Of a stretch of 38,176 bases of DNA, positions 11,260 to 12,622 are shown piece by piece. The notes beneath the pieces were generated by a model that was given only the letters and a program-made list of their open reading frames with translations, searched no databases and was not told where the DNA came from. Source of the DNA: Syntrophomonadaceae bacterium (GTDB taxonomy: Bacteria; Bacillota; Dethiobacteria; DTU022; UBA8154); assembly GCA_003563385.1 (NCBI GenBank), contig PWRZ01000099.1, forward strand, positions 1 to 38,176. Reading direction: 5' to 3'. Every line of letters begins with the position of its first letter. Position 1 is the first letter of the stretch. The position numbers and the translations under genes were made by a program.

Positions 11260-11841
11260 TCAGCGCTGCCTGTTTATTCTCCAAATAAACAACCGCTGCA
11301 GTGTAGTCATCAGCCGCGCTACGAACATGACAATCTCCGTTGAGTTGTTAATAGCAAGGGACTTACCGACCGCTTTGCCGCCTACGGTCAACGCCGATAC
11401 AAAACCGGTCAGCAATATGCTTACATAAATCTCGTTCAGTGATGAGCCGCTGGCAACCAGGTTAATAACTATAACCGCTGCTATGGCCCCGCTGACAACC
11501 CCGCTTATATCCCCGACTACATCATTACAGAAATTGGCGACCTGTTCCGCATTACGTACCAGGTACATACCTTTAATGGCCCCGTATTTCTTTTTGGCCG
11601 CCTTGGCATGGAAGGGCTTCTCATCGGCAGCCGTTACCGCTGTGCCAACGGTATCAAATATGATGCCCGTTAAAACAATCATTATCAATATAATAAAAGA
11701 AATAACAAGCGACGGTATGCTCTGGACCAGGTATCGTGTAAACAGGGCAAAAATAGATGCTAAAAAAAAAGTCCACGTGCTGACTATAATTACCCAGCGA
11801 AAAGTGCTCTTTTTTTTGCGTTCTCGACGATTTTTTGCCAA
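11260..11841 (-). CDS. oapA: OapA, membrane protein partner of OLE RNA
   Basis: About 193 residues with a basic N-terminus (KNRRERKKKS) and four hydrophobic segments at about 15-37, 42-64, 115-130 and 140-160. Between segments two and three is the conserved NAEQVANFCNDVVGDISG region typical of the OLE-associated protein OapA family. In Bacillus halodurans OapA binds OLE RNA and places it at the membrane. The start is TTG, with AAGGAG 8 nt upstream. It begins about 28 nt after the end of the RNA and precedes dxs, the arrangement known for OLE/oapA loci. Assignment rests on length, membrane topology, motif and context. Confidence 0.88.
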   Translation of the reverse strand: MAKNRRERKKKSTFRWVIIVSTWTFFLASIFALFTRYLVQSIPSLVISFIILIMIVLTGIIFDTVGTAVTAADEKPFHAKAAKKKYGAIKGMYLVRNAEQVANFCNDVVGDISGVVSGAIAAVIVINLVASGSSLNEIYVSILLTGFVSALTVGGKAVGKSLAINNSTEIVMFVARLMTTLQRLFIWRINRQR

Positions 11842-11868
11842 GTCTTTTACTCCTTACCCTTGCAGAAC

Positions 11869-12438
11869 AAAAAAAGACACGGGTGGTAACTTCATGGGTA
11901 AACTTTGCGGCTTAAGGTCCAGCAGGCTTTCCCAAATATTCACCAGTCTGTCACCAAACTGGCAGTTTCCTTTTAAGAATATTTCTGCCGTGTTGCCACC
12001 AGCAGGGCTGGACTACCACTAAGACCACACCTTAATCCCCATAAAGCCTCCCTCCGAACAGTCTAGGAGTTTTCCTCGATAGCACATTTACGCTCCCTAG
12101 CCTCTTTTGCAGCCCTGGTTTCGAAGGCGCACGCCTTTTCCCCCCAGGACCACTCAAGGCAGGCTACACTGTACACAGCATCTACCGCATACAGGTTCTC
12201 TCCCAAGTCGTAACCTTTTGCTTCTCAGCAATCCGCCACTTACTTGGGTCTCCACGAAGGCGGGGTCAACGCCTACATGCCTTTGTAGATCGCCCCACCT
12301 TCTTAACTCCCAGCACCGACCCCCAACTGGGCTTCGGCAGCCGGCACCAGGAACTTCATCGATATGCCCTTAAGCGGATTTTTAGGCCCGCCTTCAGGAA
12401 CGTGTGTGCTAACTAGAATACTGCACCACCCATGTCCC
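11869..12438 (-). ncRNA. ole: OLE RNA (ornate, large, extremophilic RNA)
   Basis: About 570 nt of structured, non-coding sequence between ispA and oapA, the position known for OLE RNA. A promoter TTGAGA-17-TATAAT puts the 5' end at about 12438. The ends pair: GACATGGGTGGT (12436-12425) with ACCACCCGTGTC (11887-11876), 12 bp with one G-U, plus a G-U extension, and U7 follows at 11875-11869. Further helices: AAATATTC (11984-11977) with GAATATTT (11941-11934); AAGGC/GCCTT around a GTGC loop; CTACA/TGTAG; CCAGC/GCTGG. No reading frame there is credible. OLE RNA with OapA forms a membrane ribonucleoprotein linked to stress and Mg2+ homeostasis. The base-by-base match to the OLE family model was not tested. 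Confidence 0.9.
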
Positions 12439-12444
12439 GCTCCT

Positions 12445-12473
12445 ATTATAGCATAATGCCTGAACAGTCTCAA
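12445..12473 (-). promoter_or_regulatory. Sigma-A promoter of OLE RNA
   Basis: Minus strand TTGAGA (12473-12468), 17-nt spacer, TATAAT (12450-12445). Five of six bases match at -35 and all six at -10. Transcription would start about six nt later, just before the 5' strand of the closing helix of OLE RNA. The RNA is therefore probably transcribed independently of ispA. Confidence 0.85.
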
Positions 12474-12477
12474 TACA

Positions 12478-12622
12478 GCACCCACTTTTCCGGACACGGG
12501 GACGGTCCGGACAGGCGGACACGGGGACGGTTCTCCTGTCCGGCAGCTCCGCACCCACTTTTCCGGACACGGGGACGGTTCTCCTGTCCGGGGCAGGACA
12601 CGGGGACGGTTCTCCTGTCCGG
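12478..12622. repeat. REP-like palindromic repeat cluster
   Basis: Four copies of a roughly 28-bp G-rich element lie in 145 bp: 12490-12510 (short, missing the TTCTCCTG part), 12516-12543, 12563-12591 and 12596-12622. Full copies begin with CCGGACA and end with TGTCCGG, so the ends pair as a 7-bp stem. A 29-bp block that includes the first part of the element and its left flank is repeated at 12478-12506 and 12551-12579. The last copy ends two bases after the ispA stop, and the first lies against the OLE promoter. Similar elements are common in intergenic regions of Peptococcaceae-like genomes, often linked to Y1 (REP-associated) transposases; none is encoded here. Confidence 0.85.

Follow-up and report, generated by a model that had tools for sequence, protein, structure and literature searches.

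Few bacterial RNAs are as abundant or as highly structured as OLE RNA. An OLE locus resembles attenuation leaders and riboswitches in that a structured RNA lies upstream of a gene, a terminator may stand at its end, and folding could set readthrough; it differs from them in that OLE itself is the main product of its transcription unit and has no known ligand. In H. halodurans, ole is part of a polycistronic operon and has its own promoter; its RNA of about 630 nt is presumably a product of processing (PMC9723947; PMC12265935), and OLE 3' end formation has so far only been presumed. For ModT (raiA motif) RNA of clostridia, another large structured non-coding RNA, readthrough into a downstream intrinsic terminator has been proposed to yield a second isoform, so that a short and a long form exist (PMC11706538). 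The ModT terminator, however, is an ordinary downstream hairpin and not the closing helix of the RNA itself. Neither an OLE terminator nor a long-range terminator of the type considered here was described in the literature searched, with the early OLE papers of 2006, 2007, 2011 and 2012 and the 2023 review lying outside that search.

The ole locus and its closing helix

The window, which is the whole 38,176-nt stretch of Syntrophomonadaceae DNA that was analysed, carries on its minus strand a full-length OLE RNA gene, which matches RF01071 with 488.6 bits (gathering score, 50) over model positions 1-616. It is the only OLE copy in the genome. The gene order is ispA (polyprenyl synthase, 13541-12624), OLE, oapA (11841-11260) and dxs, with the following features.

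12445-12473, minus strand: predicted ole promoter, TTGAGA, 17 nt, TATAAT with a TG extension (11/12 consensus matches; predicted start about 12438-12436)
11867-12445, minus strand: OLE RNA, full length (RF01071 match, 488.6 bits)
12425-12436, minus strand: P1 5' arm, GACATGGGTGGT (sequence; covariation over 188 arm pairs; pair probability 0.97-1.0)
11876-11887, minus strand: P1 3' arm, ACCACCCGTGTC (sequence; covariation; pair probability 0.97-1.0)
11869-11875, minus strand: U7 tract abutting P1, candidate OLE release site (sequence; U enrichment after P1 in the order; terminator-type score first of 193)
11850-11855, minus strand: Shine-Dalgarno sequence AAGGAG of oapA (sequence; 8 nt before the TTG start)
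11260-11841, minus strand: oapA, OLE-associated membrane protein, TTG start (193-aa frame; Pfam CNNM match, 1.8e-07)

For comparison, 220 loci were gathered and 194 distinct OLE genes were parsed from them; oapA relatives lie directly 3' of OLE in 188 of the 194. In many draft assemblies a contig break falls within the OLE gene or near it (G413, G419, G447, G449, G475; L032, L036, L045, L049).

The earlier note had paired 12436-12425 with 11887-11876 and placed seven U's at 11875-11869, and these coordinates proved exact in the sequence. The two arms form 12 contiguous pairs, 11 of them Watson-Crick and one U-G, and occupy the P1 register of the family. P1 is a named stem, part of OLE domain 2 (PMC12265935), and the closing helix seen here is almost certainly this published P1; the RF01071 model leaves both RNA ends unpaired. 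Covariation was assessed over 188 distinct arm pairs, with the arms anchored by conserved sequence and pairing not used. Watson-Crick pairs made up 69% at outer pairs 5-11, compared with 25-34% in slid registers and 35% when arms were swapped between species (maximum 39% in 500 shuffles), and all four Watson-Crick pair types were represented at pairs 6-10. Given the excess over the slid and swapped controls and the four pair types, P1 is a real, strongly covarying helix. On this comparative evidence, the helix in the window is not due to chance.

In the window, P1 has a predicted duplex energy of -21.3 kcal/mol and a predicted pair probability of 0.97-1.0. Leaving its 3' arm unpaired would cost a predicted 18.0 kcal/mol, and the best OLE site for this arm other than the 5' arm reaches -10.4 kcal/mol. 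The predicted pairings within OLE revealed neither an antiterminator nor a second partner for the 3' arm, and hence no pair of mutually exclusive folds of the kind that attenuators have. Pairing of the 3' arm with an internal conserved GUGGU was considered as a conserved switch and rejected; GUGGU stays largely constant when the P1 core changes, and OLE offers the 3' arm no strong rival site.

Compared with an intrinsic (Rho-independent) terminator, the locus has the stable, G+C-containing stem and the U-tract at once after it (U7), but not the short loop. The arms lie 537 nt apart (12425 to 11887) and enclose a structured RNA, whereas TransTermHP permits loops of 3-13 nt (PMC1852404). Finders of this kind would miss the arrangement of P1 and U-tract because of that loop limit.

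The U-tract beyond P1

The RNA, P1 and the placement of oapA after the RNA are common to the window and the OLE RNA family; the difference lies in the U-tract, which is the new part. The TTTTTTT at 11875-11869 adjoins the P1 3' arm with zero gap. T7 runs are fairly common in the window (48 matches against 20.7 expected), so that the U7 by itself is weak proof and its position is what counts. U's were therefore counted in the first 8 nt beyond the outermost G-C pair of P1, with shuffled spacers as control. The window's family (f1) averaged 5.07 U per 8 nt, where shuffling the spacers gave 3.40 (0/2000); for a sister family of the same order (f2) the values were 6.12 and 3.05 (0/2000). A family of the same class (f4) had 4.5 against 2.7. 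The remaining loci had 3.2 against 2.7, a small excess that is partly an artefact of how the helix end was defined. Judged from these counts, the window's order is the only group in which U-tracts abutting P1 are frequent; they are not a family-wide feature of OLE. Even within f1 the run shrinks from U7 (the window) to U6, U5 and, at the extreme, almost no U's, and the tract is short or absent in the genera represented by L139, L151, L187, L211 and L219. It follows from this variation that the U-tract is not essential.

An idealised terminator score, in which P1 was treated as an ideal hairpin and a value above zero was taken as a pass, was used to rank 193 loci. Thirty of the 43 f1 and f2 loci passed, compared with 20 of the 150 others. 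By family, the passes were 10/17 in f1, 20/26 in f2, 3/10 in f4, 0/3 in f3, 0/5 in f5 and 17/132 in the rest. The window ranked first of the 193, a position that is partly the result of selection, since the window had been chosen for this look. On the OLE tree, the presence of the U-tract at P1 required at least 20 changes, against a mean of 36.8 with shuffled labels; by this measure the trait is clustered but labile.

Local hairpin terminators were distributed differently. None was found between ole and oapA in the 24 f1 and f2 loci first scanned, and in f4 a separate hairpin followed by U's recurs in this position. Six OLE genes (L170-L174 and L177) have no oapA within about 1.5 kb on their 3' side; a local hairpin terminator beyond P1 was detected by the scan in five of them and recognised by inspection in L171. 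In 131 of the 188 OLE-oapA loci, neither a U-tract at P1 nor a local terminator was recognised. Since the terminator types differ in this way, lineages seem to make the OLE 3' end differently, with P1 itself apparently serving this purpose in the window's order. Two further relations were rejected: substitution between the P1 U-tract and local terminators across the tree offered too few informative independent pairs, and a link between the P1 U-tract and a short oapA spacer was not significant on independent pairs.

Formation of the OLE 3' end

The promoter places the 5' end of the RNA at the base of P1. In f1, all 17 promoters have a perfect TATAAT and 16 of 17 have the TG extension, with a median of 9 nt from the -10 to the outermost G-C pair of P1; from this distance, the nascent RNA is expected to start with the P1 5' arm. 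No second promoter was found on the same strand between the ole promoter and oapA in the window. Since, in addition, only 27 nt separate the U7 from the TTG start codon, oapA appears to depend on readthrough, and termination would have to be partial or conditional, because complete termination would silence oapA.

We lean towards a reading in which P1 and the U-tract form a leaky terminator of the intrinsic type that generates the OLE 3' end, with readthrough supplying oapA. Polymerase would start at the ole promoter, and the first RNA bases would be the P1 5' arm. The 3' arm would emerge more than 500 nt later, pair with the 5' arm and, as the stem of an intrinsic terminator does, strain the U7-A hybrid, so that OLE RNA would be let go near 11875-11869. 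A fraction of the polymerases would continue into oapA, and a single promoter would thus give much OLE RNA and less oapA mRNA. Leakiness would fit a slow long-range helix: by prediction, most of the 5' arm is engaged in other pairings until the 3' arm emerges, and only about one-third of the 5' arm is unpaired in that period (mean 0.33).

The segment between ispA and the ole promoter (12490-12620) contains three exact copies and one partial copy of a 25-nt repeat, GGACAGGAGAACCGTCCCCGTGTCC, which has 18 copies in the genome at up to 2 mismatches. Its segment CCCGTGTCC is able to pair with the P1 5' arm (predicted duplex -18.9 kcal/mol). The idea that these repeats compete for the 5' arm when transcription reads through from ispA was considered and rejected: the P1 pair probability was still at least 0.6 in the longer transcripts folded, and the relatives examined have no repeats just upstream of their promoters.

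The main alternative is processing. Here, ole and oapA would be co-transcribed, a ribonuclease would cut the AU-rich spacer, and 3'-to-5' exonucleases would halt at P1, the U-tract being a single-stranded zone of cleavage or trimming. P1 would stop exonucleases just as well as it would serve a terminator, and the H. halodurans operon with its presumed processing to about 630 nt (PMC9723947; PMC12265935) fits this scheme. The 131 OLE-oapA loci without a recognisable terminator also favour it, since another route to the 3' end must exist in them. On the other hand, processing gives no reason for U's, rather than A or AU, right after P1, and it does not predict the local hairpin terminators of the OLE genes that lack oapA. 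We consider processing less likely than termination in the window.

The U-tract could also be part of the oapA leader, for example a U-rich standby or enhancer site for ribosomes, that touches P1 only through a short spacer. Most loci of the window's order do have short spacers, and in f5 and f143, which belong to the same class, a U-run lies at a distance from P1, close to the ribosome site of oapA. The two possibilities were separated in the seven f1 and f2 loci whose spacers between P1 and oapA exceed 60 nt (98-254 nt). In all seven the U-tract was beside P1, where the 8 nt contained 6.0 U on average; stretches drawn at random from these spacers averaged 2.0 (0/20000). The last 40 nt before the start codon were less U-rich in every one of the seven. 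These results make an origin in the oapA leader very unlikely.

Least probable of all is that the U7 is a chance run without a role in an AT-rich spacer: T7 is over-represented in the window, relatives differ in the tract, and the same score is at times passed by unrelated OLE loci (17/132), but the enrichment is specific to this position over the 43 loci of two families and persists in long spacers.

Other arrangements between P1 and oapA were observed in related families. In f5 (L106, L126, L131, L135), seven or eight consecutive U's stand near the oapA ribosome-binding site, apart from P1; as the U-run of f1 and f2 sits by P1, both kinds of U-tract occur in the class. In f4 (L134, L137, L146, L149, L152), P1 is directly followed by an extended -10-like sequence, e.g. 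TATGTTATAAT, and oapA is preceded by a hairpin, e.g. AGAGTTTGCCTGCAAACTCT, with U's behind it; together they are possibly a separate promoter and attenuator for oapA. In f2 (L037, L150 and others), CUUUGUACAAAG, a near-palindrome that is conserved, overlaps the Shine-Dalgarno sequence of oapA; its distance from P1 is nearly constant, and it may be a weak hairpin at the ribosome site.

Supply of oapA and meaning for the family

Comparison within the window's order tips the judgement modestly towards termination at P1. The proposal of the earlier note that the RNA builds a terminator from its own ends holds up to this extent: the arrangement recurs in the order, the U-tract follows P1, and the promoter sets the 5' end at the P1 base. 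As a general property of OLE it does not stand, since 131 of the 188 oapA loci have neither terminator type and some f1 genera lack the U-tract.

The note had also suggested that transcription of oapA is decided by how the whole RNA folds, which would couple the dose of the protein to that of the RNA. The anatomy of the locus is consistent with this suggestion and goes no further. OapA has been reported to bind near P2. In a stricter form of the idea, only nascent OLE whose ends meet would terminate, and misfolded transcripts, or those with protein bound beside P1, would read through and give oapA mRNA, so that assembly of the ribonucleoprotein would set the ratio of RNA to protein; such a folding gate seems unlikely.

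If termination at P1 is correct, a terminator made from both ends of a roughly 560-nt RNA escapes the finders that limit loop length. The loci of the window's order and their relatives without the U-tract provide a natural comparison for this question. In the organism, completion of OLE folding would be tied to release of the RNA, and the balance between OLE and its membrane partner would be set from one promoter.
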